Notes under the pieces: model-generated | The model's database searches: none | Seen by the model: only the letters and a program-made list of their open reading frames with translations | Told to the model about the DNA's origin: nothing | Position numbers and translations under genes: made by a program | Virus record (IMG/VR): IMGVR_UViG_3300009002_000011 | Span: 1-42,048 of that record | DNA: 42,048 nt | Strand: one strand, 5' to 3' | Origin: a virus | Part shown: one piece after another, positions 3,001 through 25,618 of the stretch | Numbering within the stretch: position 1 is the first letter of the stretch | Layout of the letters: each line of letters opens with the position of its first letter

Positions 3001-6000
3001 GGTCAGAAGCTACGTGCTGCACGTTTACTTGTTAGACAATCTCTTAGAGCTAAGAAGAACTTACAAGCTCTTAAACGTGAGCTTAGAAACTTTATGAGAA
3101 AGGCTTTGCCTAAAGATTTGTATACCAAGTCTGAGACAATGAAGCTGATTAATAAAATTACTATAGCAGATGAGAACAATATAGAGAACTTGATGGATGA
3201 GATTATAGAGTTTGCAGCATCTAAAAATGTAGCTGCTCTTAAGAATCAAATTAATTCATTCTTGAAAGGTAAGTACACAGACCTACAAGGTAACAGAGTC
3301 AAAGGGTATAAGATTGATGTAGCTACAAAAGAAGCTATTGATAGAATCAAAAAATTTATACTCCCGGAAACAGCAACATCTGAAGAGATACTATCAGCTA
3401 ATGAAAAGCTATTGACTCAGTACAATAAGTTAGATGCAGACCCTGAGCAAACCTCAGAGATAGTAGAGCAGATGACTGAGTTGATGATAGCTATGAACAT
3501 AAACAACAGCTACTTAATGGAAGACACCAATATTGATAAGGTGGCTGCGTTAGATGCTGTGTCTCAGTTCATATCAGATTTAGTTACAGAAGGTAAGACT
3601 AGGTTAAAAGCAGAGATGGCTGCTCAGTCTGAAGAGTACAAGAGACAATTTGCTGAATTGTATGAGGATGTTACAGGGGATAAGGTTGATTTGAAAGACA
3701 GTTCTTGGATAGAAAAACTTAAGTCTAAGCAGAGAGTAAGAGGTCTTGAAACCAAAAGAAACAAAGTAGAAGGTAGATTAAAAAACCTTCAAAGAAAAAT
3801 GGCTAATGCAATAACATCTAACCTTATAAACACAGCAGAAGCTTTGGATGGATTGATGGATATGATATCCAAAATGCCGGGTGAAATGTTTGGAGGAAAG
3901 AGTCAAGAGTTAGTAACCGAGCGTATTGATGCGTCATCAAGAGTTTTTAAAGCTAGAAGAATGCTTATTGAGACTATGCTTAGAGAGACTATGCAAAAAT
4001 ACTACGGTAAAAATTGGAAAAAGAAATCTAGAGAGTTTAGAAAAACAAAGGTAACAGGTATCTACATAAATAAAAATGAGGTTCAAGAAGCTCAAGACGA
4101 GTACAACAAAAACAGAACCACAGAAAACAAACAGAAACTAGAGAAAGCTATACGAGAGAATGAGCTAATTCTTAGTCAAAACCAAATGTACTATTACTAT
4201 AATCAGTACAAAGACTCTGCTAACCATCCTGCATTTCAAAATATGTATGGTGTTAACTACGCTAGAGTTATGGAGGATATGACCAATGCTCTTGAGCCGG
4301 AGGTAAAAGAGTTTGCAGATTGGCAAGTTGAGGTTTTATTCCCTGCATTGTACAACCATTATAATGCTACATATAGAAAAATATATCGAACCAATATGCC
4401 TCAGCATGAAAACTATGCGGGTAAGATTTACAGGGAAGGTGTTATAACTGAACCAATGGATTTGATTTCAGGTGTTGGAGCTCCTTTTAATAACACTGTA
4501 GGTGCTGCATCTACAAAAGTTAGAGAGGAAACAAATGCCAAAATTGCGGAGACAGATGGTAGTGATGCTTTGTTTACTTATCTATATGATATGGAATACT
4601 TTGCAGCATACGCTGAAGCTGTTAGAGATATAAATAAATTGTTTACTAATGAGTATATAAAGAAGGCTATTGAAGATGTTCACGGTAAGTACACTATGAG
4701 CTTGATAACAACAGCTATTCAAAAACTAGCAAACAAGGGAACTAGAACAGGTCTTACAGCTAAGTGGATAAATGGTATGAACAATGTATTCATCACATCT
4801 AGATTAGGTCTTAACCCTGTAGTAATGATTAAGCAGTTGACTTCATTTGTGACATACGCAAATGATATTGGATTTGCTAATTGGGCTAAGTATGCGTTTA
4901 CAAATATGAGCGAGCTTAAGAAACTATACAAAGAGGTTAGAGACAATTCTGTATATATGCAAGACAGAAAGTTCGATGGTATTATGAGAGCTATTGAAAG
5001 TTATGCAGATTCTACTGAACTTAAAAGTTTCTTACCTAATGAGACTAAAGACTTTATGAATAACTTCTTGCTATTCACAACTAAGTTTGGAGACAGGGCA
5101 GCGATATATCTTGGAGGTCTTCCTAACTACAGCTACTATAAAGCTGAGTTTAAAAAGAAGAATCCAAATGCAACAGAGCAGGAGGCTATTGACCATGCGG
5201 TTATTAAGTTTGAAAGAGATACCAAGAGAACACAGCAGTCAGGAGACTTGCAGGATAAGGATTTATTCCAAACCTCAGACCCTATAAGCAGAGCTTTGAA
5301 TATGTTCCTTACAACACCTAAGCAATACTTAAGAAAAGAGATACAATCTAGTAGGTCTTTATGGAGAAAGCTAAAGGCTTGGGATAAGTCAGCAGGAAAA
5401 GGAACTGTTACTCAGAACATTAGAACAATGTTTACCTATCACATTATGATGCCTGTATTTTTTCAGTGGATAGCAATGGGATTACCGGGAGCTCTTAGAG
5501 ATTGGAGAGATGATGAGGAAGAAGATTTGTTAAGAGCTGCAATCATTGGTAACTTGAACGCATTCTTTATATTAGGAGAGATGGTGAATATGGCAGGAGA
5601 CTTTTTCACAGCAAAGCCTTGGGCGGGAGGCATAAAAACTGCAGGTATATTAAATCAATCACGATTAATAACAGAGTCTGCTGTAAGGGCATCTAAAATA
5701 AAAGACCCTGAAAAAGCTGCAGCGGCTTGGAGAAAGTTCCAATTAGAATTGGTTAGTATGACAGGATTGCCCGCATCCAACGTAAATAAAATGTCAGGAA
5801 ATATTCAGAAGCTTGTTGAAGGTGGTCTTGACCCCGGAGAAGCTATACTTAGAATATTGAATTTCTCTGAGTATCAAATAAAAGGAATGAAGAAAAAGAA
5901 GCCTAGTAAGAAAGAAATGAAACTTACTAAGAAGGAGATGAAGAAATACTTTCCCGAACTCTATGATGAAATGGAAGACCTTAGAGACCTAGAGTATGAA

Positions 6001-6078
6001 GAGGAGATGAAGGAACTCAAAGCACAGCAGAGAGAAGAAAGAGAAAGAATGTTAGAAGAAATGTATAACGATTATTAA
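1..6078 (+). CDS. Giant polyvalent virion protein, 5'-truncated by window
   Basis: The reading frame is open from base 1, so the start lies outside the window; at least 2025 codons are visible. Seen: an HExxH zinc-protease-type motif (HEAFH, bases 43-57), a second one (HELQH, 1834-1848) in a context like that of phage polyvalent-protein peptidase-like domains, and a ParB-like segment with DGRHR at 2464-2478. Long helical, Lys/Glu-rich stretches follow (about 2750-4200), then a region with hydrophobic helices (4780-5650) and a highly charged tail. Known: such multi-domain giant phage proteins are often packaged and injected with DNA. Inferred: an internal or ejected virion protein with protease and DNA-interacting modules. 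It ends 7 nt before the next gene on the same strand. The exact domain family names cannot be fixed by eye. Confidence 0.85.
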   Translation: MHINLSKAKRTTAAHEAFHALLLNAVKNNDAAAKRLADKFMVAIRKVASGKLLAELDAHAAKYKDTSLQTEEQVAELIGILSANYGQMSKPSKNKVIAFLRALGKSLGIPRMEELTKSEEDVVDLLNTLSSRLAAGIELQAEDVSLLEELDNGTNPIGTPTEIVLPKTRESRLEFKDSYENSLVTPEKQFDITSLIKDIVAKKQKVWFWVADQLGINETIDGGPSFAHQVEGDIWASSVSTKTIEKNSKEADYLFIISGSPEVSKLFNKKVYDVMTSKLGDFNTFKKKALEAKPIKVIKDTLNEYNSWEELKDTTDRKPFLIALNKSKNTPNTAFTKFVNSIDGYTDIDALRDGFYRENDFKQNDIMLVLKPTGARQGSNHSTYNNTVEGEVIGVPDRKIDALQLMPKEMREKYEGKRAMASQAIAPYGSGKKVISPEAGAEFDKLTTEEKSKARQQLIGENALMQQGVRVNYTLAKEMTRQGKSPLVIKRATGWELGKDNMWKYETEDTKLVDSFWKKTPFTFDKTLDNAIKGASYSLKDIVKTDIVKQYPKIGEAKLYVTNTFKDGFNELMTKGSLGFYDAENNQIVINSDIFKGDKTKAIQKFESVLNHELQHAIQFIEGFTVGSNKDISMQQALNLIDALTIEYKQNGKEEIFNDISELRSLVKALEELDNGDTQAYLRIGGEVESRNVQKRMEMTDKQKRESLLESTEDVRPEDIIYVFDDYQRTRFTPKKAKTRQQLDTYPMETEGQWYGEGDFKARGGVLTMMSPQDFLSKAKNLEIDEETRENVDDLKKHIQDGKKLDPLTLYSLDATDVRNSDGRHRAIASQELGIQEVPVVDYTQVKTRNQLETVEYINEARDNNFTDAAIKDFLVRRKGMSATEVDELLAMKVDKLTTLPKSFGNVKGGAKVGLRLFERVKQFQKKETARNKKRKNPISQAQIMDKTIEFLEAQPEYKKEAEAYVEKGVTKYKKGLSVQQAKMQSELQKSTGQRPTQNMGQKLRAARLLVRQSLRAKKNLQALKRELRNFMRKALPKDLYTKSETMKLINKITIADENNIENLMDEIIEFAASKNVAALKNQINSFLKGKYTDLQGNRVKGYKIDVATKEAIDRIKKFILPETATSEEILSANEKLLTQYNKLDADPEQTSEIVEQMTELMIAMNINNSYLMEDTNIDKVAALDAVSQFISDLVTEGKTRLKAEMAAQSEEYKRQFAELYEDVTGDKVDLKDSSWIEKLKSKQRVRGLETKRNKVEGRLKNLQRKMANAITSNLINTAEALDGLMDMISKMPGEMFGGKSQELVTERIDASSRVFKARRMLIETMLRETMQKYYGKNWKKKSREFRKTKVTGIYINKNEVQEAQDEYNKNRTTENKQKLEKAIRENELILSQNQMYYYYNQYKDSANHPAFQNMYGVNYARVMEDMTNALEPEVKEFADWQVEVLFPALYNHYNATYRKIYRTNMPQHENYAGKIYREGVITEPMDLISGVGAPFNNTVGAASTKVREETNAKIAETDGSDALFTYLYDMEYFAAYAEAVRDINKLFTNEYIKKAIEDVHGKYTMSLITTAIQKLANKGTRTGLTAKWINGMNNVFITSRLGLNPVVMIKQLTSFVTYANDIGFANWAKYAFTNMSELKKLYKEVRDNSVYMQDRKFDGIMRAIESYADSTELKSFLPNETKDFMNNFLLFTTKFGDRAAIYLGGLPNYSYYKAEFKKKNPNATEQEAIDHAVIKFERDTKRTQQSGDLQDKDLFQTSDPISRALNMFLTTPKQYLRKEIQSSRSLWRKLKAWDKSAGKGTVTQNIRTMFTYHIMMPVFFQWIAMGLPGALRDWRDDEEEDLLRAAIIGNLNAFFILGEMVNMAGDFFTAKPWAGGIKTAGILNQSRLITESAVRASKIKDPEKAAAAWRKFQLELVSMTGLPASNVNKMSGNIQKLVEGGLDPGEAILRILNFSEYQIKGMKKKKPSKKEMKLTKKEMKKYFPELYDEMEDLRDLEYEEEMKELKAQQREERERMLEEMYNDY

Positions 6079-6085
6079 TATAGGT

Positions 6086-6253
6086 ATGCCATTTAAAAGC
6101 GAAGCACAAAGAAGATATATGCACAAGAACCTCCCGGAGATAGCAGCTCGATGGGAGGCTGAGTATGGTAGTAGCGATTTACCTAAGAGGATAAAACCTA
6201 AGACAAAACTTCAAGAGAAAAGAAGGAGAAGACGAAAGGGTAGAAGATACTAG
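6086..6253 (+). CDS. Small basic phage protein (MPFKSEAQRRYM family)
   Basis: 55 codons. It starts MPFKSEAQRRYMHKNLPEIA, an N-terminus common to small phage proteins of unknown function that sit near structural genes. The C-terminal third is almost all Arg and Lys, ending in RRRRRKGRRY, which suggests nucleic-acid or capsid-interior binding. It follows the giant virion protein by 7 nt, so the two are probably co-transcribed. The final G of its TAG stop is the first base of the 16-bp palindrome at 6253-6268, so translation ends exactly at the repeat. The gene converges on the minus-strand arm. Confidence 0.75.
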   Translation: MPFKSEAQRRYMHKNLPEIAARWEAEYGSSDLPKRIKPKTKLQEKRRRRRKGRRY

Positions 6254-11663: not shown

Positions 11664-14069
11664 TTAAAAATCTGATACATACTCAGCGTCTCTCTCTCTT
11701 AGTATCATCCAATTCCCCGAAGAGTCTCTACCCTTTTCAAACTCAATCCCATCTTTAAAATCAGCATAAGCTTGTAAGAACTTATAGAATTTAGTACGTG
11801 ATATACTCATTCTAGTTCTAGGTGCATAGTCAGGATAGTCTTCTATAAAGTCACTGTAAAGAACTTGCATATAGATTCTCTTGTTGGTTTTAAGTTTTGG
11901 ATTTTGAGTTCCATCAATTATACCACACCACTCTATGAACTCGTGGTTAGTCTTAGCGGATAAATGTCTAACCTCAAGATTTACAAAGTTACTTTTTATT
12001 AATCCCTTATCTAGATAAGACTGTAAGCATTCAATCATATAGTTGTCAAAGCTACACCACTCATCATCATCCCAATCTCCAAACATCAACCTTCCAAACT
12101 CATCCAATGGAGTAAAGTTTTTGTTGTAGTGTTGGTGCAACTCTAGTTCCCACTTTCTTCTAGCGAATGAATTACCACTACCCTTTATGGCATAGTTAGT
12201 TGTGATTGCTATCTTAGGTGACTTACTAAATGGTATCTTGATTGCATCCTTGTTCTTCTTCTCCAAGGTCAACCCTTCTGTTACAACGCTAAACAACCTT
12301 TCAAAATCAAAGTGTTTCTTTACATCATCAAAGCAAAGTATCTGCGTATCTGCCGACACTAACTGATATGCGAACGAACGTTCAAAGGTAAAAGACTTAC
12401 CATCAATAACAACTAACTTCTTCATATTAGATAGTGCATTCATAAACAATCCTTTACCTGTACCTCCTTCGGGATTGTCAGATATAACTTCGTCATTAAG
12501 AATTACTGCGGGAGAATATGATAAATTTTTGTGTGCGTGCATAAGAAATCCTACTGTACTCTCCATAGACTTCAACCTTGAAGCATCATCACCACTAATT
12601 CTTGACAAGAACTTTTGGTAGTCGCAACCATCACCACTACATAGATTAAAAGTTCTATCAATTACGTGGTCTTTCCAAACGTATCCACCTAAATCCATAT
12701 AGTCAATAGGAAGAATCTCATTCTTTGTAATCTTAACAGCACAGTTTGTGTAGTACAAGTATGCTGTATCTTTTGTATCTTCTATAAAGTAGATGTCTAC
12801 TGTTGAAAGAAGAGTCAAGAACTCCTCTCTAAAGTACCTTGTATTCTCTGCAAAGTAATTATACACTGACAAGTCATCAAGAGTAATCAATGTGTTCAGT
12901 ATAAAGTCTTTTATCTCCTTCTCTGATGTATGGTCTATAAGGTTATTCTCTACCCTTACAAACACATAGTTACGACCTCCTTCGGGGCAATACTTATAGA
13001 AGCCATTGTCTTCTAAGAACTGCTTAAACAAAACGTGCACTATCTTAATAACTCCCTTGTCTGATTTTGTCCAAAATACTTTTGACTTGTTCTCCTCTTC
13101 AGCACGATTCAAAACAGACTCGATAACATCGCCATCAATCTGTGCTTCCTCCAACTGATGACGAACCTCCTTTTTTGAGACACCTCTTCTAAGCTTTGCT
13201 TTGATTTGGTTTATTCTCTCTTCATCCTCGTAGTACTTAGTTCCAAAGTTTTGACTGTTGCTGTACGCACTGTCAACAGTTCTTTGAACTTCTTGAGCAG
13301 TGAACCCTTGAGTTGTGAATTGATTCATCACATACATTGCCAAACTCTTGTTGATTCCATAATCATTCAATGCCATTGCAAGAATGTATGTGTTTTGATT
13401 TCGTTGACCTTCAACCATTGGGTACTTCTTAAGCCACCACTTCATTAGAATCTCAACAACCTTGTTCTCATCTGTGATTGGTATCGTAGGAGCATCTTGA
13501 TGAACAACAACCTCTCTGTATTCAGTCTCTTCAATCTTATCCCATACACTTGAATTTTCATTCACATAAATTAATGGGTCGTAAGACTCGTAACAAACTC
13601 TGCTCAAGTTCTTACAAGTTTTATCAAAGTACTTGCTGCTGAATCGTTTCTCAAGAGAGTTGAAATACTTAACGTGATTCTCTTCGTCTTGTGGTATCTT
13701 GACAAGAACCTTAAGACCGTTACCCGATGGTGAAATAAACACAGAGAATGTGTGCTTGTCTTTGGATATAACTTCCTTGTCTTGTAACAAATCCTTTTTG
13801 GATTCATACCCATCAAAGTCTAAGCATATTAATCCACTGTGCTCTAGTAGTGATGAGTCATTTCTTTTGGTGAACTTACCCGAAAAACATATTGATGGTA
13901 ATGCTTTCTTAAGTTCGTTACGTTGTGACTTGTCTTTCTCAAGTCTAATTTTCTTAACTACTTCCTTAGTTGCTCCATCTTTTATTCTCTTAAGAATACC
14001 ATCCACATTTCTGTGGAACGGTGTAGATGTATCGTGTATGTTTCGGAAGATTGTGATGATGTGTGACAT
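11664..14069 (-). CDS. Primase-helicase (BT4734/VirE-N-like primase plus SF3-like helicase)
   Basis: 801 codons. N-terminal part: CLDFDG at 82-87 and SPSGNGLK at 113-120 resemble the catalytic and substrate-binding segments of the BT4734/VirE-N archaeo-eukaryotic primase-type domain found in Bacteroidota elements. C-terminal part: Walker A GGTGKG (535-540), Walker B ILCFDDV (577-583), then a sensor-like IAITTNY segment, as in phage SF3/D5-like helicases. Inferred role: primer synthesis and fork unwinding for phage replication. No DNA polymerase gene is in view. It is the first gene of its transcript segment, starting just left of a 220-bp non-coding region. Confidence 0.88.
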   Translation of the reverse strand: MSHIITIFRNIHDTSTPFHRNVDGILKRIKDGATKEVVKKIRLEKDKSQRNELKKALPSICFSGKFTKRNDSSLLEHSGLICLDFDGYESKKDLLQDKEVISKDKHTFSVFISPSGNGLKVLVKIPQDEENHVKYFNSLEKRFSSKYFDKTCKNLSRVCYESYDPLIYVNENSSVWDKIEETEYREVVVHQDAPTIPITDENKVVEILMKWWLKKYPMVEGQRNQNTYILAMALNDYGINKSLAMYVMNQFTTQGFTAQEVQRTVDSAYSNSQNFGTKYYEDEERINQIKAKLRRGVSKKEVRHQLEEAQIDGDVIESVLNRAEEENKSKVFWTKSDKGVIKIVHVLFKQFLEDNGFYKYCPEGGRNYVFVRVENNLIDHTSEKEIKDFILNTLITLDDLSVYNYFAENTRYFREEFLTLLSTVDIYFIEDTKDTAYLYYTNCAVKITKNEILPIDYMDLGGYVWKDHVIDRTFNLCSGDGCDYQKFLSRISGDDASRLKSMESTVGFLMHAHKNLSYSPAVILNDEVISDNPEGGTGKGLFMNALSNMKKLVVIDGKSFTFERSFAYQLVSADTQILCFDDVKKHFDFERLFSVVTEGLTLEKKNKDAIKIPFSKSPKIAITTNYAIKGSGNSFARRKWELELHQHYNKNFTPLDEFGRLMFGDWDDDEWCSFDNYMIECLQSYLDKGLIKSNFVNLEVRHLSAKTNHEFIEWCGIIDGTQNPKLKTNKRIYMQVLYSDFIEDYPDYAPRTRMSISRTKFYKFLQAYADFKDGIEFEKGRDSSGNWMILRERDAEYVSDF

Positions 14070-18314: not shown

Positions 18315-18334
18315 ACATCTGTTTTTAAAGGTTT

Positions 18335-18383
18335 CCGTTTCATCCTTTAGGAATCATCAGTGCAAGTACTCACTTGCATACGG
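18335..18383 (-). ncRNA. Hammerhead ribozyme A (type III)
   Basis: All core elements are seen on the minus strand. Stem III 5' side is CCGU; cleavage triplet is GUA, with the cut after 18379; stem I is TGCAAGT/ACTTGCA (7 bp) with a GAGT loop; then CTGATGA (18360-18354), stem II UCC/GGA with a UAAA loop, GAAA (18341-18338) and stem III 3' side CGG. The open end is at stem III, so it is type III. Weak points are a U-U at the 10.1/11.1 position, normally G-C, and a stem III of only 4 bp. It lies between two minus-strand genes, directly downstream of a hairpin. Confidence 0.85.
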
Positions 18384-18385
18384 TA

Positions 18386-18411
18386 AAGGAGTGTCTTCGA
18401 AGACACCCCTT
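18386..18411 (-). repeat. Stem-loop with palindrome copy 5, 5' of ribozyme A
   Basis: The exact 16-mer occupies 18391-18406. On the minus-strand RNA, AAGG/CCTT flanks plus one G-U wobble lengthen the stem to 11 bp with a UCGA loop; on the plus strand the wobble would be an A-C mismatch. It starts 4 nt after a stop codon and ends 6 nt before the cleavage site. Confidence 0.85.
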
Positions 18412-18415
18412 GTTC

Positions 18416-18526
18416 TTACTTTCCAAAGTACCCCGCCTTGTGATAAGGGTCGGCACACATTTCAGAAAGCAAGATAACTATTATCATAATGATATACAAA
18501 ATTATTTTGCCTTGTCTGTCTGTCAT
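18416..18526 (-). CDS. Membrane peptide, 36 aa
   Basis: Begins MTDRQGKIILYII, then a strong TM helix (IILYIIMIIVILL), then SEMCADPYHKAGYFGK. Its stop is 4 nt before the hairpin of ribozyme A, so the mature message would end just after this gene. Function unknown. Confidence 0.5.
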   Translation of the reverse strand: MTDRQGKIILYIIMIIVILLSEMCADPYHKAGYFGK

Positions 18527-18535
18527 ATCGTTTGT

Positions 18536-18826
18536 TTATAAATGTCCTCCATCGTTTGTTTCTTCACAATCGAAACGAGTTTCAGCATCACAACCTTCTT
18601 GATTAAATCCATTTTCAAAACATCCACTACCGAACTCAAGTTCTGATTTATCAGTAGCATTATCTATTTGCTCAGACCACAAATCCTCGTTCTCCAATAA
18701 ATAATCATCTAAAGAATGATAGCCTTTATTATCTATTAAGTATTTCTCATAATCCTTCTTATTTATTTCTATTTCTACTGTACCCACTTTGTGGTAAACA
18801 AACCTTTGGCTAATTGTTACTTTCAT
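18536..18826 (-). CDS. Hypothetical acidic protein, 96 aa
   Basis: Begins MKVTISQRFVYHKVGTVEI. It has a beta-like N-terminus, a KKDYEKYLIDNKGYHSLDDYL helix and a very acidic Cys-containing tail (GCDAETRFDCEETNDGG). Similar acidic small proteins are common in flavophage accessory regions. No function is assigned. Confidence 0.65.
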   Translation of the reverse strand: MKVTISQRFVYHKVGTVEIEINKKDYEKYLIDNKGYHSLDDYLLENEDLWSEQIDNATDKSELEFGSGCFENGFNQEGCDAETRFDCEETNDGGHL

Positions 18827-18868
18827 ATTATTTAATTTTAGTTGTTTATTTAATTTAATTGATTGGTT

Positions 18869-19048
18869 TTATTTAGAGAGAATTTTAGAAAATATTACCA
18901 TCATATTCTCTAAGTAGTCCGTATCAAATCTATTCCAATAAGACCTATCGGGAATGTTCAACGATAGAGTCTCGTGCTGACTGCTTAGTACATCGATGAG
19001 TAGATTTCTGTAACTTGTTGGTTCGTAATACGCAGATTTGTATAACAT
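18869..19048 (-). CDS. Hypothetical 59-aa protein
   Basis: Begins MLYKSAYYEPTSYRNLL. A complete frame with AT-rich leaders on both sides like those of its neighbours. Helical, with a hydrophobic C-terminus (MMVIFSKILSK). No family is recognised. Confidence 0.6.
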   Translation of the reverse strand: MLYKSAYYEPTSYRNLLIDVLSSQHETLSLNIPDRSYWNRFDTDYLENMMVIFSKILSK

Positions 19049-19066
19049 AATATATAGTTTTAATTA

Positions 19067-19303
19067 TTAGTACTCATCTAATGGATACATATCTTCCCAA
19101 CCATCTACTGCGTTAGGATTGGCATAAGTTCTCTCTACGTGAGTGTAAGCCTCAACATAGTATACCTCATCAATAAAGTCATCTGATAGTTCTTCAAAAT
19201 ACTTTTCTGCTTCATCGAATGTGCTGAACCCATCAGCGTTCACCTCTCCGCCTCCTTGTGGACTAACCCACATTACTCTGTACATTTTTGTTTCTGTTAT
19301 CAT
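19067..19303 (-). CDS. Hypothetical 78-aa protein
   Basis: Begins MITETKMYRVMWVSPQGGG; an alternative start is MYRVMWV. Pattern: a strand, an FSTFDEAEKYFEEL helix and an acidic end (WEDMYPLDEY). It looks like a small alpha/beta adaptor of unknown role. It sits 1 nt downstream of the next upstream gene, so co-translation is likely. Confidence 0.6.
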   Translation of the reverse strand: MITETKMYRVMWVSPQGGGEVNADGFSTFDEAEKYFEELSDDFIDEVYYVEAYTHVERTYANPNAVDGWEDMYPLDEY

Positions 19304-19304
19304 C

Positions 19305-19871
19305 TTATATAGTTTTATAGTTTTTAAGTTCTTTTAATCCATATTCATCTGCGTGAAATCGTACAGCAAACCAAATTTGATTCATAGTTTCTTCATTAGT
19401 TAATGCAGAATCCAACACATCTTGTGCTTCATCATCGTCACACTTAAATATACCTTTGACATCTTCAACTTGCCATAAATTACCCGTATAAAATCCTCTG
19501 TTTGTCAACAACTCTTTTAGTTCATTAGTAGAAAGTTCCCAATTATCAGACTCTCTTACTACATTTAGGTTATGCATTTTTATAAATTCTACTACTGCTT
19601 TGTATGTGGTGTCAATTTTATGAGAACCTCCAAGTATTTCAATGTCAGTTCCTTCAATATGAGCATTACACATATCAATAGTGAATCTGTAAGCATTGCC
19701 ATTCTCATCTCTAAGACCCTCTATCTTCTCAACTACAGTCATTAGCCAATCCCAAGATGTTTGAAATAAACACAGAGAATGAATCGAATGTGTCCATTCC
19801 CCATCATTAAAACTTCTTTCGTCTGAATATTTCATTCCCATAAATTCTGCTATAAGTTTATTGTCTTTCAT
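19305..19871 (-). CDS. Two-module phage protein (NKLIAEFMG module then LWxVxDV module)
   Basis: 188 codons. Module 1 (residues 1 to about 95) begins MKDNKLIAEFMGMK and contains TSWDWLMTVVEKIE, a combination frequent in Bacteroidota phage and element proteins of unknown function. Module 2 (about 105-188) has ELLTNRGFYTGNLWQVEDV and DEAQDVLDSALTNEETMNQIWF. The upstream neighbour contains both modules in the opposite order. No enzyme motif is seen. Confidence 0.75.
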   Translation of the reverse strand: MKDNKLIAEFMGMKYSDERSFNDGEWTHSIHSLCLFQTSWDWLMTVVEKIEGLRDENGNAYRFTIDMCNAHIEGTDIEILGGSHKIDTTYKAVVEFIKMHNLNVVRESDNWELSTNELKELLTNRGFYTGNLWQVEDVKGIFKCDDDEAQDVLDSALTNEETMNQIWFAVRFHADEYGLKELKNYKTI

Positions 19872-19872
19872 A

Positions 19873-20373
19873 TTATATAGTTTTATTGTATTGATTAATA
19901 AATAGTACTACTTCATCAAAGACATCTTCAATACGACCATAAGGAACTACATCCAATAGGTTCTCTCTGTAATCATTGTCAAGAAACTTTTCATCTCGCC
20001 TTATTTTTCCTACTACAGGCATCAGCCAATCCCAAGAAGTGTCGTATTTCAAGTAAGAAAAATCTCCTTCATTACCTAAATCGGGATAACCCATAAATTC
20101 TGCGATAAGTTTATTGTCTTTCATCTTGTTTGTTTTTTTAATTAGTGCAACCTCGTAATCTATCTGTTCGAAGATACTCTCCATTACTCCTTCATTGTTA
20201 AGAGCGTTCTCAAGAACCTCTTCTGCTTCTACTACAGTTAGCTCTTCATAGATTTGAAGCACATCTTGAACGTGCCATAGGTTACTCAAGACATATCCTT
20301 GTCTTGCTAACTGCTGTTTTGAATACTCTGTGTTTCTAGCAGACATACTGTCGTTTTGATTTGTTTGTTTCAT
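19873..20373 (-). CDS. Two-module phage protein, permuted paralog
   Basis: 166 codons. The first module (about 15-80) has QQLARQGYVLSNLWHVQDV and VEAEEVLENALNNEGVMESIF, matching module 2 of the neighbour. The second module begins at residue 83 with MKDNKLIAEFMGY and contains DTSWDWLMPVVGKI, matching module 1. The internal Met at 83 could also be a separate start. It is the first gene downstream of ribozyme B; the cut at 20437 would leave about 63 nt of 5' leader. Confidence 0.75.
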   Translation of the reverse strand: MKQTNQNDSMSARNTEYSKQQLARQGYVLSNLWHVQDVLQIYEELTVVEAEEVLENALNNEGVMESIFEQIDYEVALIKKTNKMKDNKLIAEFMGYPDLGNEGDFSYLKYDTSWDWLMPVVGKIRRDEKFLDNDYRENLLDVVPYGRIEDVFDEVVLFINQYNKTI

Positions 20374-20391
20374 AATAAATAAATTAAGATT

Positions 20392-20442
20392 TCGGTTTCA
20401 TCCTTTTGGAATCATCAGCACGGACACTCATCCGTGTACCGA
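20392..20442 (-). ncRNA. Hammerhead ribozyme B (type III)
   Basis: Minus strand: stem III UCGGU/ACCGA (5 bp), triplet GUA with the cut after 20437, stem I CACGGA/TCCGTG (6 bp, 6-nt loop), CTGATGA (20418-20412), stem II UCC/GGA with an AAAA loop, and GAAA (20399-20396). It differs from copy A in both arms of stems I and III while pairing is kept, which is strong evidence for the fold. As in A, position 10.1/11.1 is U-U. It lies between the amidotransferase fusion and the permuted paralog gene. Confidence 0.88.
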
Positions 20443-20464
20443 GAGTGTCTTCGAAGACACCCTC
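20441..20464 (-). repeat. Stem-loop with palindrome copy 6, 5' of ribozyme B
   Basis: The exact 16-mer occupies 20445-20460. Flanks extend the stem to 10 bp on the minus RNA with a G-U wobble at the same place as in copy 5. Its last bases abut stem III of the ribozyme and overlap it by 2 nt. It begins 23 nt after the stop of the upstream gene. Confidence 0.85.
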
Positions 20465-20487
20465 TCTTTCTACTACTACATAGAAAA

Positions 20488-21567
20488 CTAAAGGTTAACT
20501 ACAACCTCTTGTTCTGTAAAACTCTCATTGCATTGAGGACAATGGTATGAGGAGTTTGATATCTCATGCTCATCAACAACTAAGTCTGAATAGCAATTGA
20601 CACACATCGGTGATTCGTTCAACACATCAAAGTCATCTTCAACTTTGAAAGCGTCATCCCAAATCATCTGCTGTGTGCATTCAACTTGGTCTCTGAATGT
20701 GTACGTGCTAGGCTTGTACACTTGCTGTGTGTATCTTTGATGCATTTGCTCCCCAAGTGGTAACTCTTTCAAGTTAAAGTAAACCCAACAGTTTACTGTC
20801 TTACCGCTGTTCAACTTGATTGGCACTTGCTTTCTTCTGTACCAATTCGGATGACCCTCTAGCCTATCCAAGTCTAGTAGCTTGCTGTCGTCAACCTTGA
20901 AGATGTCAATCTCTACGTTGTGACCTACACCTTTCTCCTCAATCAAGTATGGCAACCCTTGTATAAGTAATGGGTACTTGTCAACAGTCTTACCTCTGCC
21001 TAGGTACTTGCTTGACCGCAAGTATCTGTTGTAGTTAGAGTAGTTCTTCTTTAGCGTTCCGTACACACCAATAACGTGGTCTTCTAATACGTTAGCCTTT
21101 GAATACCAAACACCATCTCTCTTGAAGTAAGCATCTCTGTTGTATATCTGAAATGTTCTTGTTCTTCTGTTAATACTAACGAACCTAGCTTCGTGCTGTT
21201 CCAACTCTGCTCTCCATTCGCTTCTTGGCATATCACCTAGCATACGTGCTTGAACCTTGGTGTCGCAAGTCTCTGCATCACCCAACCCTCTGATTGTTCC
21301 GTTCATCATAAGCAACTCATCTCTGTTCTTGCCACATACAAATGGATGCATATTCTCTCTGTTGATTTTACCCACAGTAGCATAACGGAAGTGAGCGATG
21401 AATGGTCTGTCAGTGTGCAACTGAGCGTAGTCTTTAGATTCTTGGTATGTCAACTCAAAAGTGTCTAGCCATACAATCCCCAATCCGTGAGGATTGATTC
21501 GTGCTGAAGTCTTGAGTCTCTCCATTGGAATCTTTTCTGATTTCTGTTTGATAATAATAATACACAT
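20488..21567 (-). CDS. Class II glutamine amidotransferase - gamma-glutamyl cyclotransferase - zinc ribbon fusion
   Basis: 359 codons from MCIIII. I chose this start because class II amidotransferases need Cys2 exposed as the nucleophile. GAT-II part: C2, HGLGIVW (27-33), AHFRYAT (58-64), HPF (74-76) and MNGTI (88-92). Cyclotransferase (GGCT/AIG2-like) part: VYGTLKKN (168-175) and LDRLEGHPNWYRR (232-244). C-terminal zinc ribbon: C322-x2-C325 and C343-x2-C346. Inferred activities are glutamine-amide hydrolysis or transfer and release of gamma-glutamyl groups as 5-oxoproline. It lies in one strand unit with an amidoligase and a papain-like peptidase. The palindrome at 21591-21606 is in its 5' leader, and hammerhead D lies upstream. 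Confidence 0.85.
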   Translation of the reverse strand: MCIIIIKQKSEKIPMERLKTSARINPHGLGIVWLDTFELTYQESKDYAQLHTDRPFIAHFRYATVGKINRENMHPFVCGKNRDELLMMNGTIRGLGDAETCDTKVQARMLGDMPRSEWRAELEQHEARFVSINRRTRTFQIYNRDAYFKRDGVWYSKANVLEDHVIGVYGTLKKNYSNYNRYLRSSKYLGRGKTVDKYPLLIQGLPYLIEEKGVGHNVEIDIFKVDDSKLLDLDRLEGHPNWYRRKQVPIKLNSGKTVNCWVYFNLKELPLGEQMHQRYTQQVYKPSTYTFRDQVECTQQMIWDDAFKVEDDFDVLNESPMCVNCYSDLVVDEHEISNSSYHCPQCNESFTEQEVVVNL

Positions 21568-21590
21568 AGTAAGTAATAAATTTGTGAGTA

Positions 21591-21606
21591 GTGTCTTCGA
21601 AGACAC
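21591..21606. repeat. 16-bp palindrome copy 7, in 5' leader
   Basis: Exact 16-mer, 24 nt upstream of the amidotransferase fusion ATG and 12 nt downstream of ribozyme D. After cleavage by D it would form a hairpin near the 5' end of the downstream RNA. Confidence 0.9.
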
Positions 21607-21618
21607 AGAACTCGGTTT

Positions 21619-21673
21619 GTATAAGACACGGAATGAATCCGTGTTTCGACTATTTAAGTCTCATCAGTTATAC
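21619..21673 (-). ncRNA. Hammerhead ribozyme D (type I)
   Basis: Minus strand: stem I GTATAA/TTATAC (6 bp) is the open end, so it is type I. CTGATGA lies at 21667-21661, stem II is GACT/AGTC with a 5-nt loop, GAAA lies at 21647-21644, and stem III is 7 bp (CACGGA side) closed by a 5-nt loop. The cleavage triplet is GUC, with the cut after 21625. The canonical G-C at 10.1/11.1 is present. Stem I begins at the base right after the stop codon of the 103-aa gene. Confidence 0.9.
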
Positions 21674-21985
21674 TTACTTTCTACGCATCTCTTCTGCGTA
21701 CTCCTTGGCTTGCTGTTCTCTGAGCATCTCAATGTGATTGAATAGCTTCATAAAGTTCTCTAGCAATACCTTCTTGTTCCCCTTGATGCCGAAGTAAGTC
21801 TTGACATCTCGAACCCTCCAATTGCTATGTGGCTTCATCCCTATCGCATTTAATCCGATGTCTCTCTTGCTTACGTACAGATTGTACATTGCTCTTTGCA
21901 TTGCTTTTCCGTTGAATTGGAAGTAAGCATCCTCGTCTGTTAACTCTTTGTAAAATGGTGTTGTAGTATCTAGTTTGTAACTCAT
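21674..21985 (-). CDS. Hypothetical 103-aa protein
   Basis: Begins MSYKLDTTTPFYKELTDED. Helical, with WRVRDVKTYFGIKGNKKVLLENFMKLFNHIEML and an acidic/basic tail. The segment RDVKTYFGIKGN could be a helix-turn-helix, which is weak. Its TAA (21674-21676) is immediately followed by hammerhead D. Confidence 0.6.
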   Translation of the reverse strand: MSYKLDTTTPFYKELTDEDAYFQFNGKAMQRAMYNLYVSKRDIGLNAIGMKPHSNWRVRDVKTYFGIKGNKKVLLENFMKLFNHIEMLREQQAKEYAEEMRRK

Positions 21986-22053
21986 AATATAAAATGTTTA
22001 AATGTTGTCTATCACTTTTACAATGATAGTCTAATTAATTGATAATTCCTAAT

Positions 22054-22215
22054 TTATTTTAATATTCTTTTAAATTCACTAGGATTAACCGTTCCGTACT
22101 TGTGATGGAACTTGCATAGGTAGTCTCCCGCATCGTGAAATTCCTCTAATGAATAGATTCCATCGGTCGAATTGTAAATCTTATTTGCTCTGATTAATTT
22201 TTGTAGTTCGTTCAT
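22054..22215 (-). CDS. Hypothetical 53-aa protein
   Basis: Begins MNELQKLIRANKIYNS. Mixed alpha/beta, with FHDAGDYLCKFHHKYG. Its start overlaps the upstream stop by 4 nt. The 68 bp between it and the next gene are AT-rich and show nothing else. No family is recognised. Confidence 0.55.
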   Translation of the reverse strand: MNELQKLIRANKIYNSTDGIYSLEEFHDAGDYLCKFHHKYGTVNPSEFKRILK

Positions 22216-22493
22216 AATACTTTAACGTTTTCGTTTTTTATAAATGTTTCAACTCTCCCATATCCTTGCTTAAACTCAGCACCGTTTTCTAGTTTAAAGT
22301 AGCACACATCCCAATCATTACCTCTGTCAAATTTAAACTTCTCTCCTTTTTTTATAGTGTAGTAGCATCCTTTCCAACCGATTCTGATTCGTCTTTTTTG
22401 TGGTATAAATCCAACTTGTGTTTTCTCTAATGGTGTATTGTACCATTTTGCATCAATAAATACTTCAATTTCTTCTGTTGCTTGTAAATTCAT
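22212..22493 (-). CDS. Hypothetical beta-rich protein, 93 aa
   Basis: Begins MNLQATEEIEVFIDAKW. Alternating hydrophobic strands (RRIRIGWKGCYYTIKKGEKFKF) suggest a small beta-barrel. No catalytic motif and no known family. Confidence 0.6.
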   Translation of the reverse strand: MNLQATEEIEVFIDAKWYNTPLEKTQVGFIPQKRRIRIGWKGCYYTIKKGEKFKFDRGNDWDVCYFKLENGAEFKQGYGRVETFIKNENVKVL

Positions 22494-22504
22494 AATGTTT
22501 GTTT

Positions 22505-22720
22505 TTAAAGGTTAATAAATTTGGTTAAACAATAAGTTACAGACGCAATGTATATCACTAGTATCACTGCTGCCGCAACTTGCTTTCTTACATCTTTCTT
22601 TCGTTGATTGATTGCTTCAATCTCTTGCTTGGTGTATACATCTACACGCATCACTTCTCTGCCTTTTATTTTTACTCCCGTACCTTTTTCTACATAGGTT
22701 AATCCGTTTTTTGTTTTCAT
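22505..22720 (-). CDS. Tail-anchored membrane protein, 71 aa
   Basis: Begins MKTKNGLTYVEKGTGVKIKG. A charged helix (EIEAINQRKKDVRKQ) is followed by one C-terminal TM segment (AAAVILVIYIASVTYCL) and only a few residues after it. Probably anchored in the inner membrane with the N-terminus in the cytoplasm. Function unknown. Confidence 0.6.
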   Translation of the reverse strand: MKTKNGLTYVEKGTGVKIKGREVMRVDVYTKQEIEAINQRKKDVRKQVAAAVILVIYIASVTYCLTKFINL

Positions 22721-22724
22721 AATG

Positions 22725-22799
22725 TTATCTGTTTATTGAGTGAAATGCCTTAGCATATTGTTTTAATTTGTTTATTACTTTTTTAATTGTTGCTTTCAT
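22725..22799 (-). CDS. Possible basic peptide, 24 aa
   Basis: MKATIKKVINKLKQYAKAF and a few more residues, an amphipathic basic helix. It has the same type of AT-rich leader as neighbouring genes. It is too short to be sure it is translated. Confidence 0.3.
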   Translation of the reverse strand: MKATIKKVINKLKQYAKAFHSINR

Positions 22800-22809
22800 A
22801 ATGTTTAAT

Positions 22810-23214
22810 TTATATTTCGTAATATGAGTTTGCTCTGTAAGAACCACAATTCCAAGTATCAAGATGTTCACCATCTACGATAGCTGTTAAATGACTTCTT
22901 GTAAGTACAATGTATCTCTTGCCTTCGCTTGTTGGGAAGTTCTTAACGGAATACGTCTTGCCTTTGCTGTTCTTTTTAGGCTTGTGCTTAGTGAATCCTA
23001 AATCGTACAAGTAATCCTCGTACACCTCTCTAAAGTTTATTGGCATACACGATGGATGATGCAGTGCATACTCGGTTAACTCTTTAAACACTTCCTTGTA
23101 CCCTTTGTCTGTAGCGTGAACAATTGCTCTCACTACACAGTCTCCAACTACCAATTCTTTTCTTGTGCCATTGGGCATAATCTGTTTCCTTGGATTTGAT
23201 TTTTTGAACTTCAT
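22810..23214 (-). CDS. Papain-like cysteine peptidase, phage type
   Basis: 134 codons. GDC26VVRAI carries the expected nucleophile Cys; SH108LTAIVDG the His; LD119TWN122C the acidic/Asn position. This Cys-His-Asp order and spacing matches small papain-fold (C39/peptidase-like) proteins common in phages. Substrate unknown. It lies between the amidoligase (23693-24652) and the GAT-II/cyclotransferase fusion, which makes a role in making or removing peptide-type amide bonds plausible (inference). Confidence 0.7.
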   Translation of the reverse strand: MKFKKSNPRKQIMPNGTRKELVVGDCVVRAIVHATDKGYKEVFKELTEYALHHPSCMPINFREVYEDYLYDLGFTKHKPKKNSKGKTYSVKNFPTSEGKRYIVLTRSHLTAIVDGEHLDTWNCGSYRANSYYEI

Positions 23215-23233
23215 AATATTTGTTTTTAATTGT

Positions 23234-23428
23234 TTATATTTTCAACTTTAACCTTAACTGTTTTCTGTCTATTTTACCATTGTAGAAATCACACCATATA
23301 TTTGCATAGTCTACTCTACCAAATAAACCTACTACTTTAATACCTTGTTCTTTTAGTGTTCTGTGTGTTTCTTTTGTTGTTTCGAGTATTGAAACTTTTT
23401 CGTCTTCTTCTGTTAAAAAATACTTCAT
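23234..23428 (-). CDS. Hypothetical 64-aa protein
   Basis: Begins MKYFLTEEDEKVSILETT. Alpha/beta pattern with GIKVVGLFGRVDYANIW and a basic end (RKQLRLKLKI). It starts 12 nt after the small palindrome-bearing gene. No family is recognised. Confidence 0.55.
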   Translation of the reverse strand: MKYFLTEEDEKVSILETTKETHRTLKEQGIKVVGLFGRVDYANIWCDFYNGKIDRKQLRLKLKI

Positions 23429-23439
23429 AATATTTGTTT

Positions 23440-23595
23440 TTAATTATTTGTGTCTTCGAAGACACCTATTACTTTTCCGTATTTACATACACTGTCGTAC
23501 CAATTACTAAAGTGTTTTTCGCTCTTGAACTCAATAGGATAAGAAGAATACTTACCCTCGTGAGATTTTACTGATGCAATACATTTGCCTATCAT
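23440..23595 (-). CDS. Small ORF, 51 aa, ends in palindrome-encoded VFEDT
   Basis: Begins MIGKCIASVKSHEGKYSS and ends GVFEDTNN. The palindrome at 23450-23465 is in frame as VFEDT three codons from the stop. It is the first ORF downstream of ribozyme C (the cut at 23661 leaves a leader of about 65 nt). Composition looks coding, but no family is known. Confidence 0.6.
   Translation of the reverse strand: MIGKCIASVKSHEGKYSSYPIEFKSEKHFSNWYDSVCKYGKVIGVFEDTNN
23450..23465. repeat. 16-bp palindrome copy 8, 3' end of small ORF
   Basis: Exact 16-mer within the last codons of the 51-aa ORF and 22 nt upstream of the next gene's ATG. Flanks do not extend the stem. Confidence 0.9.
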
Positions 23596-23615
23596 ATAAG
23601 AATAAATTTAAGTTA

Positions 23616-23666
23616 GCTGTTTCGACCTTTTGGTCTCGTCAGTACAGATACACATCTGTAGACAGC
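23616..23666 (-). ncRNA. Hammerhead ribozyme C (type III)
   Basis: Minus strand: stem III GCUGU/ACAGC (5 bp), triplet GUC with the cut after 23661, stem I TACAGAT/ATCTGTA (7 bp, GTGT loop), CTGACGA (23642-23636, fitting CUGANGA), stem II GACC/GGTC with an AAAA loop, and GAAA (23623-23620). All canonical core positions are present. It lies between the amidoligase gene and a small ORF, directly downstream of a 7-bp hairpin. Confidence 0.92.
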
Positions 23667-23684
23667 GGGAGTATCTCTACTCCC
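23667..23684 (-). other. Stem-loop 5' of ribozyme C
   Basis: GGGAGTA/TACTCCC, 7 bp with a 4-nt loop. It begins 8 nt after the amidoligase stop and ends at the first base of ribozyme stem III. It replaces the palindrome-type hairpin seen before ribozymes A and B: a different sequence in the same position, which points to a structural role. Confidence 0.85.
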
Positions 23685-23692
23685 ATTTGCTG

Positions 23693-24652
23693 TTAGTATT
23701 GCCTTACGCAATCTCTATCCCAAAAATCACGCATTGTGTTTGTTGGGTCAATCCATCTTTGGGTCTTTGGATTGATTTTGTTGGACACAATTGTCTTGCG
23801 GAATGCTTCTGCCAATTCCATCATCTCTAACACCTTGGTCTCATCTTGTTCGTACATAGACATCAAGATTGGCTTTAGCTTGTTTAGAAGCGATTTGTGG
23901 CTTCCTCTCGGTGAGTTGATACTATGGTCAACTATCACATACATCATCTCATAACGTCTCATCATCTGCTTCACAGATTGGAATCGTGATGGTAATCTAA
24001 ACTCAAGAGCGTGTCTCATTGGTTTAGCTACTGTGTATTTGTGGTGTCTTCCACCCATCATTTTAACTAGTCTTCTTCTAGTGTTTTGGTCGTGTCTCAT
24101 CGTGATGTTCTTGTTGCAATATCCATTGCCTAATCTGTGACGAAACAATGCAAGCAGAATACCGCAGTTTTTACGCATTGCATCCATCACCTCGTAGCCA
24201 TCCATCCCATCTACAGAGACAGTGATATGTCCACCGCATTTGGTATTTGATGGTGAAAACTCATCTTCAATAATCGTTCTAGCTTGGTGCATCATATTGA
24301 AAACTTTGTTTCTCCATTTACCTCTAGGTAGCAAAGGTAAGATGTTTGTCACTGCTTCATAACCGCAAGATGAATCACGTTCAAATCCTGCAAATAGAGT
24401 GTACTCTTGTACAGCTCCTCGGTGAAATCTAGTCTTTTCAACTTCGAAACCTATAGCAAATCTGCTCTTAAAATCACCTTGGTTTTGCTCGTCTTCTAGG
24501 ATATTACGTCTATCATTCCATTTCAGTGTAGCAATGTCACTGCTCTTTGCACCCTTGTGATGCTCTAGGGATGCATCGCATCCATGGTATCTGTTTACTC
24601 TCGCTCTCGCTGAGTTTCCTGTTACTGTGTAGTTAATCTCGTTTGTATTCAT
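23693..24652 (-). CDS. Amidoligase (COOH-NH2 ligase, glutamine-synthetase-like fold)
   Basis: 319 codons from MNTNEINYTV. The alternative GTG within the palindrome at 24682 is less likely. Family features: a GFEVEK strand (68-73, the GxExE-type start), an ERDSSCGYEAVT segment (91-102), CGGHITVSV (139-147, the conserved CG.H.H-like turn) and HALEFRLPS (214-222). Known: amidoligases join amino groups to carboxylates with ATP and recur with GAT-II and gamma-glutamyl cyclotransferase genes. That genomic link is seen here 2.1 kb downstream. Substrate unknown. Confidence 0.75.
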   Translation of the reverse strand: MNTNEINYTVTGNSARARVNRYHGCDASLEHHKGAKSSDIATLKWNDRRNILEDEQNQGDFKSRFAIGFEVEKTRFHRGAVQEYTLFAGFERDSSCGYEAVTNILPLLPRGKWRNKVFNMMHQARTIIEDEFSPSNTKCGGHITVSVDGMDGYEVMDAMRKNCGILLALFRHRLGNGYCNKNITMRHDQNTRRRLVKMMGGRHHKYTVAKPMRHALEFRLPSRFQSVKQMMRRYEMMYVIVDHSINSPRGSHKSLLNKLKPILMSMYEQDETKVLEMMELAEAFRKTIVSNKINPKTQRWIDPTNTMRDFWDRDCVRQY

Positions 24653-24666
24653 AGTAGTAGTATTTT

Positions 24667-24682
24667 GTGTCTTCGAAGACAC
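24667..24682. repeat. 16-bp palindrome copy 9, between two genes
   Basis: Exact 16-mer, 3 nt after the stop at 24686 and 14 nt before the amidoligase ATG at 24652. Right flank CT and left flank TT do not extend the stem. Confidence 0.9.
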
Positions 24683-24685
24683 TGA

Positions 24686-25282
24686 TTAGGATAATTTAGA
24701 TGCTAAAAATTCGATTGCTTTTGCGATGTCCTCTGCGCCGTTCGTAGTAATTACTTTGCCTTGGTCATCAATTCGTACAGATACTGTGGTTTCACCTTTG
24801 AATGTCATCGTGAATACTGTTGATGTTCTCTCTGCTGATGCAGTTTCTGTGGTTTCACCGCCATTACTAGCGAACTTCAATAGGGATGCTACTGACATAG
24901 ATGCAGAATCACCGTTTGCATCTGCTTCAGCTACAGCAGATTTGAATTGTGCTACTACTTCGGGCTGTTCGTTCTGTAGCTTACCTACCTTCAGCATTTT
25001 GTAGAAAAATGACTTCTTCCATCCGTACAATTTGGTGTAGAAATCTTCCTTTGTCCAAGTTACACCGTAGTCATCCATCTGTGCTTTTCCTTGTGCTGAG
25101 TTGAACCAACCCCAAGATTTAACTACAATCTCACTTAGCTGTAGTGATTTCTCAAATTTCACTTTCTTGGCATCAGCTACACCGCTAATTAGAGACTCGA
25201 TGTCTCTTAGGCTTCCACCTATCTGATTTGCTACAGATACTTCGTTGAACAATGCACTTTCAATACTTAATAAATTTCTCAT
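24686..25282 (-). CDS. Uncharacterised phage protein, 198 aa, first in early arm
   Basis: Start placed at MRNLLSIESALFNEV (ATG at 25282). A longer frame to 25345 is open but overlaps a small leader-like ORF. Three parts are visible: a helical N-terminus, a central aromatic-rich segment KSWGWFNSAQG/DFYTKLYGWKKSFFYKML, and after an Ala/Ser/Thr linker a beta-type C-terminus (FTMTFKGETTVSVRID). Similar proteins occur first in flavophage early operons. The arrangement suggests a DNA-associated or regulatory role, but I do not recognise the family. Confidence 0.7.
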   Translation of the reverse strand: MRNLLSIESALFNEVSVANQIGGSLRDIESLISGVADAKKVKFEKSLQLSEIVVKSWGWFNSAQGKAQMDDYGVTWTKEDFYTKLYGWKKSFFYKMLKVGKLQNEQPEVVAQFKSAVAEADANGDSASMSVASLLKFASNGGETTETASAERTSTVFTMTFKGETTVSVRIDDQGKVITTNGAEDIAKAIEFLASKLS

Positions 25283-25301
25283 CTTGTTGGTTTTTAGATG
25301 A

Positions 25302-25409
25302 TTAGATGGCAATATTGCCGATATGACTAGAACTTTGCACTTCATTGCTGTGTAAAACGCTGATTGTCAGCGAGTTAGCGTATTTGTTGATGTGACATAG
25401 TCTATCCAT
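25302..25409 (-). CDS. Possible leader peptide, 35 aa
   Basis: Begins MDRLCHINKYANSLT and stops 19 nt before the ATG of the first large early gene. A hairpin CGCTGA-TTG-TCAGCG (25359-25373) lies inside it. The position fits an upstream regulatory ORF, but coding potential is weak. Confidence 0.35.
   Translation of the reverse strand: MDRLCHINKYANSLTISVLHSNEVQSSSHIGNIAI
25359..25373. other. Hairpin in early leader
   Basis: 6-bp perfect stem CGCTGA/TCAGCG with a 3-nt loop TTG. No T-run. It lies 77 nt upstream of the first large early gene start and could be an attenuator or an operator half-site pair. Confidence 0.5.
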
Positions 25410-25602: not shown

Positions 25603-25618
25603 GTGTCTTCAAAGACAC
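25603..25618. repeat. Palindrome variant (GTGTCTTCAAAGACAC)
   Basis: One base differs from the exact 16-mer, in the four central bases (TCGA to TCAA). The arms GTGTCT/AGACAC are intact, so a 6-bp stem-loop remains possible. It lies in the divergent control region. Confidence 0.85.

Follow-up and report, generated by a model that had tools for sequence, protein, structure and literature searches.

What several self-cleaving ribozymes do within a single phage operon is the question raised by IMG/VR virus record IMGVR_UViG_3300009002_000011, the whole stretch of which (42,048 nucleotides, hereafter the window) was analysed and whose leftward genes are parted at four places by hammerhead ribozyme folds. 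The rightward, plus-strand genes of this 42-kb virus record include those for GroEL, terminase, portal and virion proteins, and the leftward, minus-strand genes include a helicase, a primase-like protein, a Sak-like protein and an exonuclease VIII-like exonuclease. Judging from sequence comparisons, it is rather likely that the four hammerheads cut a long early minus-strand transcript, and that the role for which they have been selected is the formation of mRNA 3' ends.

A descriptor based on the hammerhead core (CUGANGA, stem II, GAA, closed stems I/III and NUH) was run over the whole window, with 60 dinucleotide shuffles as control. Four matches only were found, all on the minus strand (three type III and one type I), against an expectation of 0.017 matches per window (one match in the 60 shuffles). 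These are the same four folds that a first-pass annotation, made from the letters of the window, had located, with both types recognised and with cuts predicted at the positions where the descriptor places N17:

23616..23666, minus strand: hammerhead A, type III, GUC, predicted cut after 23661, G-C at 10.1-11.1
21619..21673, minus strand: hammerhead B, type I, GUC, predicted cut after 21625
20392..20442, minus strand: hammerhead C, type III, GUA, predicted cut after 20437, U10.1-U11.1 mismatch
18335..18383, minus strand: hammerhead D, type III, GUA, predicted cut after 18379, U10.1-U11.1 mismatch

All four lie between leftward genes in the direction of transcription, as first described, and all carry CUGANGA...GAA, A15.1-U16.1 and H17 at a three-way junction. 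Copies A, C and D have stem III open with stems I and II closed (type III), and copy B has stem I open with stems II and III closed (type I). In their core, closed stem I, open stem III and loop I-loop II contact, the type III copies are like the hammerhead of the sTRSV satellite RNA, from which they differ in being borne on mRNA, in having a hairpin upstream and in often combining U10.1-U11.1 with A17. The closed stem II claimed earlier for every copy holds for A and B, where 10.1-11.1 is a standard pair, but not for C and D, which have U.U at that place. Passages of Perreault et al. (PMC3088659) put a natural U.U variant of the hammerhead core on record, so C and D were kept as variants; according to the same passages, candidates mispaired next to the core were dropped from the final alignments unless activity had been measured.

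The search against Rfam that had been recommended as a check gave no match at gathering cut-offs in the window or in eight relatives. In E-value mode three of the four copies appeared below the cut-offs: 23614-23668 matched RF00008 with 40.3 bits (E 2.7e-6; gathering 48.5), 18332-18386 matched RF00008 with 33.8 bits (E 1.9e-4), and 21619-21673 matched RF00163 with 32.7 bits (cut-off 34). Copy C (20442-20392) was not listed even in this mode. The U.U mismatch at 10.1-11.1 of C and D helps explain these weak or missing scores.

Relatives were gathered with two protein queries from the window, the primase-like protein (11664-14069) and a GATase-GGACT protein (20488-21567), which yielded 111 virus loci of a large, aquatic phage family that probably infects Bacteroidota. 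In these relatives and the window the descriptor found 132 hammerheads (108 distinct), of which 131 lie on the coding strand. An alignment of 58 diverse type III copies needed no gaps, and 97.6% of its stem cells were paired compared with 71.6% after shuffling, and pairing fell to 34-47% when the partners were slid; two-sided changes were seen in 250 cells versus 67.5 in shuffled alignments, and all three stems covaried. The earlier observation that structure is kept rather than sequence, drawn from the four window copies, thus extends across the family. Loop columns 12, 16, 36 and 38 were conserved in 91-100% of 100 uniform type III copies. A covariance model applied to 37 whole records detected one to four type III copies per genome of about 60 kb in 25 of them, and several hammerheads flanking genes of one phage transcript were found in relatives as well as in the window. 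The hammerheads were confined to the accessory part of the early operon, and none was found at the 3' ends of replication gene clusters 0-6 and 9-11 in several hundred junctions. Hammerhead arrays were also noticed in other IMG/VR phage groups (L244, L250, L273, L275, L302, L305, L323 and others), some with other hairpins and some without. In a scan of bacterial and archaeal genomes with the hammerhead pattern, nearly all matches were chance matches.

That hammerheads occur in phages, as the first-pass annotation had said, is established: clusters were published in 2011 (PMC3088659). With these prophage clusters in print and with relatives carrying up to four copies, its further view that four in one operon is unusual had to be given up. 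Clustered prophage hammerheads, the idea that long phage RNAs are cut into shorter mRNAs (proposed by Perreault et al. 2011), and the cutting of tandem hammerheads of other phages in vitro and in E. coli are already known from passages of that report (PMC3088659). As described there, the prophage clusters resemble the present ones in that several hammerheads of both types lie on one transcript, where they flank single genes or short gene blocks; unlike them, the present hammerheads belong to an aquatic phage family, usually have a hairpin on the upstream, 3'-end side if they are of type III, are tied to the upstream gene and are replaced in some genomes by tRNA-like elements or terminators. 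The theta ribozymes of gut phages are likewise self-cleaving phage ribozymes with a processing role, as far as passages of PMC10879173 describe them, but they are HDV-like and linked to suppressor tRNAs, not to mRNA 3' ends. The open-access literature yielded no report of the hairpin-hammerhead unit, of the tie to the upstream gene or of the exchange with tRNA-like elements.

Across the family, the hammerheads are parts of compact units laid out between a stop codon and the next start codon. Type III copies start a median of 32.5 nucleotides past the upstream stop codon and end a median of 22 nucleotides (interquartile range 20-27) before the next start codon, and a hairpin occupies the gap on the upstream side. 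In type I copies, which start at -1 nucleotide from the stop codon and end 17 nucleotides before the next start codon, stem I adjoins or includes the stop codon (often as GGT-TAA), and the hairpin is stem III itself. Hairpin stems of 8 bp or longer adjoined 76 of the 107 type III copies, compared with 3.2% in shuffled sequences and 2.4% at random places, and only one of the 33 type I copies. The hairpins next to the three type III copies of the window, and the palindrome that recurs in two of them, had been overlooked in the first-pass annotation:

23667..23684, minus strand: hairpin GGGAGTA GAGA TACTCCC, directly upstream of hammerhead A and after the stop codon at 23693
20441..20464, minus strand: hairpin GAGG-GTGTCTTCGAAGACAC-TCTC, upstream of hammerhead C, sharing the outer two nucleotides of its stem III
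18386..18411, minus strand: hairpin AAGGG-GTGTCTTCGAAGACAC-TCCTT, upstream of hammerhead D
21591..21606, minus strand: GTGTCTTCGAAGACAC hairpin between hammerhead B and the start codon of the cluster 7 gene
24667..24682, minus strand: GTGTCTTCGAAGACAC hairpin without a ribozyme, after the cluster 12 gene (24686-25345)

Hammerhead B begins just past a TAA stop codon (21676-21674), its own stem III serving as the 3' hairpin. The palindrome GTGTCTTCGAAGACAC (16 bp) has nine exact copies in the window, at 6253, 10470, 14652, 16818, 18391, 20445, 21591, 23450 and 24667 (chance expectation 0.07 for the whole search), and copies with one mismatch at 25603 and 34044. In the relatives the apex of the hairpin is usually the repeated palindrome GTGTC(N6)GACAC, which far outnumbers every other 5-6-5 inverted repeat in these phages (345 versus 50 for the next). 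Hairpins formed on this palindrome had 4.5 extra lower-stem pairs beside hammerheads, compared with 0.65 inside genes and 1.4 after stop codons without a cutting element, indicating that the long RNA hairpin is specific to hammerhead sites. In some genomes the palindrome has a uniform centre (in MW202828, GTTAAC); together with its presence inside genes, this suggests that it may be a protein-binding site as well. In three loci the palindrome itself makes up stem III of a type I hammerhead (L049 2350-2409, L100 9299-9362 and L106 2236-2297).

Messages that end in a hairpin behind the stop codon are familiar from the intercistronic hairpins of phages (such as the CUUCGG hairpins of T4) and from intrinsic terminators. 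Unlike these, the hairpins described here lack a U-run and are followed by a cleavage element. Structures of this kind close behind stop codons could instead block translational re-initiation, as described for ribosome termination structures (PMC7518266), the hammerheads then being inactive or neutral remnants. We regard this explanation as extremely improbable, given that the hammerhead core is invariant across diverse copies, that loops I and II are conserved, and that the lower stem is lengthened specifically beside hammerheads.

The relatives were compared to see whether the element goes with the gene in front of it or with the gene behind it. The window genes in question were the following:

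23693..24652, minus strand: gene of cluster 8, 319 amino acids, with a sub-threshold DUF72 match only
21674..21985, minus strand: accessory gene of 103 amino acids, whose stop codon adjoins hammerhead B
20488..21567, minus strand: gene of cluster 7, 359 amino acids, with a GATase-like N-terminus and a gamma-glutamyl cyclotransferase GGACT domain

Among the relatives, a hammerhead was found at the 3' end of cluster 8 genes in 50/70 cases and at the 5' end in 10/60; the corresponding counts were 32/70 and 3/72 for cluster 7, and 10/51 and 0/49 for cluster 12. The gene that follows the cluster 8 element belonged to about 25 families in 36 distinct cases. The ribozyme subtype also tracked the upstream gene, 32 of the 35 copies behind cluster 8 being G-C at 10.1-11.1 and 20 of the 23 copies behind cluster 7 being non-G-C. 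The element belongs with the upstream gene, and the downstream genes change. At the 3' end of cluster 8 in three separate genomes (L078, L100 and L220), hammerheads with an apparent core insertion, CTGATGATGA-CC...GGTCGAAAC, were observed.

These counts bear on the possibility that the hammerheads are 5'-end insulators, natural counterparts of RiboJ, which would trim each leader to a constant 5'-OH end about 20 nucleotides before the start codon and so make the accessory genes independent of what lies upstream. RiboJ uses the sTRSV hammerhead, which shares the type III layout; ribozyme and start codon are tightly spaced (the median and interquartile range given above), and the copy of an Elemovirus stands before the first gene of an operon. 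Position and subtype, however, track the upstream gene while the downstream genes change, the core genes seldom have an element at their own 5' end (3/72 and 10/60), the hairpin is on the upstream side, and the terminators that replace the hammerhead in some relatives keep a 3' end and make no 5' end. The insulator role was thus judged unlikely.

The strongest argument for 3'-end formation came from these replacements. The 49 unique junctions behind cluster 8 comprised 32 with a type III hammerhead, one with type I, five with near-miss hammerheads, four with tRNA-like elements, three with terminators, one with a hairpin alone and three others, two of which are also tRNA-like (L050 by the minihelix descriptor, L196 by eye); the automatic junction labels miss some tRNA-like cases, for instance L146, L094 and L196. 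The intrinsic terminators, with U-runs, take the place of the hammerhead in L007, L008 and L018. The tRNA-like minihelix stands behind the hairpin; its acceptor stem is stacked on a T arm that has a TTCRA loop, and a short GG-containing linker joins the two. Such minihelices were found in relatives and none in the window. They followed cluster 8 in L022, L050, L112 and L113, cluster 7 in L038, L040 and L055, and cluster 12 in L046 and L196. A strict tRNA-like descriptor gave 50 candidates, true tRNAs included, against two in one shuffle, and the minihelix descriptor gave 34 matches against four in a shuffle. Twenty tRNA-like elements covaried, with 91.7% of the cells paired versus 52% after shuffling, and the GG and the TTCRA loop were invariant or nearly so. 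The minihelices were rejected as true tRNAs, since they have no anticodon arm and ARAGORN called none in the loci scanned. Mapped on the protein trees, the devices must have changed at least 10 times for cluster 8 and at least 15 times for cluster 7.

RNase P accepts minimal substrates consisting of an acceptor stem and a T arm, and it processes phage RNAs such as C4 of P1/P7 and CI of P4. The replacement elements share the acceptor and T stems, and have the TTCRA loop, but differ from these substrates in lying at the 3' ends of protein genes and in being swapped with hammerheads; RNase P would be expected to act on them. Type I and type III hammerheads, a putative RNase P site and a terminator have in common an upstream message that ends in a hairpin and have no common 5' end, which argues for 3'-end formation. 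Larger tRNA-like elements with a D-arm-like part were also observed (L055 1882, L075 9349, L080 901, L110 11296 and L033 2191); some end in ACCA or GCCA, and in the loci scanned none was recognised as a tRNA. In L045 and L097 a further structured region, GTGGTCAG...CTAGACCACC, occupies the place of the hammerhead at the cluster 7 3' end and had no Rfam match at gathering cut-offs.

The same replacements weigh against two further explanations. Repeated hammerheads and hairpins could act as cassette boundaries, that is, as short homologies for the exchange of accessory genes by the Sak-like annealing protein and the exonuclease, cutting being incidental. Nearly every genome has different genes behind the elements, the palindrome is repeated, and Sak-like and exonuclease VIII-like genes are present; yet DNA homology does not require diverse ribozyme sequences to keep their pairing and core, and unrelated devices (type I, tRNA-like, terminator) swap at one site, which makes this explanation improbable. 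Pairs of hammerheads could also free RNA segments that are ligated, by RtcB or by ribozyme reversal, to circles or to spliced messages. Several sites are present on each transcript, and ends with 5'-OH and 2',3'-cyclic phosphate are substrates of RtcB. Against such excision, RtcB was not found in 23 phage records, which makes planned ligation by an enzyme of the phage less likely; the tRNA-like and terminator replacements cannot serve ligation; and, in passages of PMC3088659, neither spliced nor circular products were detected for other tandem phage hammerheads. Excision was therefore considered very improbable.

In the proposed formation of 3' ends, which builds on the folds, their covariation and positions, the adjoining hairpins, the tie to the upstream gene and the interchange of devices, the hammerheads would cleave the transcript in the cell, and the splitting of the message into pieces, already suggested in the first-pass annotation, is the likeliest outcome. 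By established hammerhead chemistry, cutting after N17 would leave a 2',3'-cyclic phosphate and a 5'-OH. In a type III unit the upstream message would end, with the cyclic phosphate, 4-7 nucleotides past the hairpin, and the downstream message would begin with the 5'-OH in stem I, its start codon lying about 20 nucleotides past the ribozyme. In a type I unit the ribozyme would stay on the upstream message, which would end one nucleotide past its own stem III hairpin. In either case the hairpin would protect the new 3' end of the upstream message. In related phages an intrinsic terminator, or a tRNA-like minihelix that follows the same hairpin, would serve these gene ends. All the devices would produce a hairpin-capped 3' end that parts core genes from changing accessory genes in a terminator-poor early operon. 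A scan for hairpins with U-runs detected no terminator-like site on the minus strand of the window from 25,345 to 14,018. Sigma-70 promoter matches in the operon were fewer than in shuffles, and the ribozyme sites were not marked by matches to the Bacteroidota-type promoter, the clear ones preceding the plus-strand GroEL region.

Several observations weigh against a role in 3'-end formation. Many GTGTC palindromes have no adjoining cleavage element, a hairpin was present at only 54 of 100 type III copies in other phage groups, and of the 50 unique cluster 7 junctions 17 had no such device. The spacing on the downstream side (about 20 nucleotides to the start codon) equals that on the upstream side in regularity, and the new 5'-OH end may have a role. 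The copies with U.U may cut slowly. The minihelices are probable RNase P sites, and cutting 5' of the acceptor stem is read from their shape. The cultured Flavobacterium phage elemoF (L118, MT497071), an Elemovirus, carries a single type III hammerhead (minus strand, about 17919-17866); it stands 14 nucleotides before the first gene of a leftward operon, without an upstream hairpin, and so fits a 5' role better.

The U.U mismatch led to a side result. In 271 distinct hammerheads from virus contigs (L006-L352 and the window), U10.1-U11.1 occurred with A17 in 82/90 cases, whereas G-C occurred with A17 in 26/165; A10.1-A11.1 occurred with U17 or C17 in 10/10. The association of U.U with A17 held when the set was reduced to 75% identity, and it was seen in type I and in type III taken separately; it is based on these identity-reduced counts and on the occurrence in both types, the two gene trees providing too few independent pairs for a tree-based decision. 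The association of U.U with A17 and of A.A with U17 or C17 may be an unreported coupling in the hammerhead core and new biochemistry.

A wider proposal, to which we would give somewhat less than an even chance, is that this phage family has largely given up terminators in the accessory part of its early operon, and that the 3' ends there would be formed by a modular unit in which a stop codon and a protective hairpin are followed by a cutter that can be exchanged (type I, type III or a tRNA-like RNase P substrate), with the coupled core change of a subset (U10.1-U11.1 with A17; A10.1-A11.1 with U17 or C17) tuning the cutting. Phage hammerheads would then, for the first time, have a specific function that evidence supports.

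The host of the window phage is probably a member of the Bacteroidota, because its cultured relatives infect Flavobacterium, Polaribacter and Cellulophaga, and because a Bacteroidota-type promoter pattern, TTTG-N20-TATCTTTG, precedes the GroEL gene. ARAGORN called no tRNA in the window. An open frame of 1990 amino acids on the plus strand (106-6078) matched only LPD23 and, weakly, DUF6782; it may encode a polyvalent virion protein of large size.

In a review (PMC6155905), what hammerheads do in prokaryotes is called an open question. Since devices of unrelated kinds take one another's place at a single gene end, a specific and testable role, mRNA 3'-end formation, can be put forward for those of this family, and Elemovirus isolates on Flavobacterium sp. 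BAL314, which carry a related hammerhead, are a possible laboratory system. If this role is correct, the units would provide natural hairpin-ribozyme parts for synthetic biology, and self-cleavage would be a routine alternative to termination in phages.

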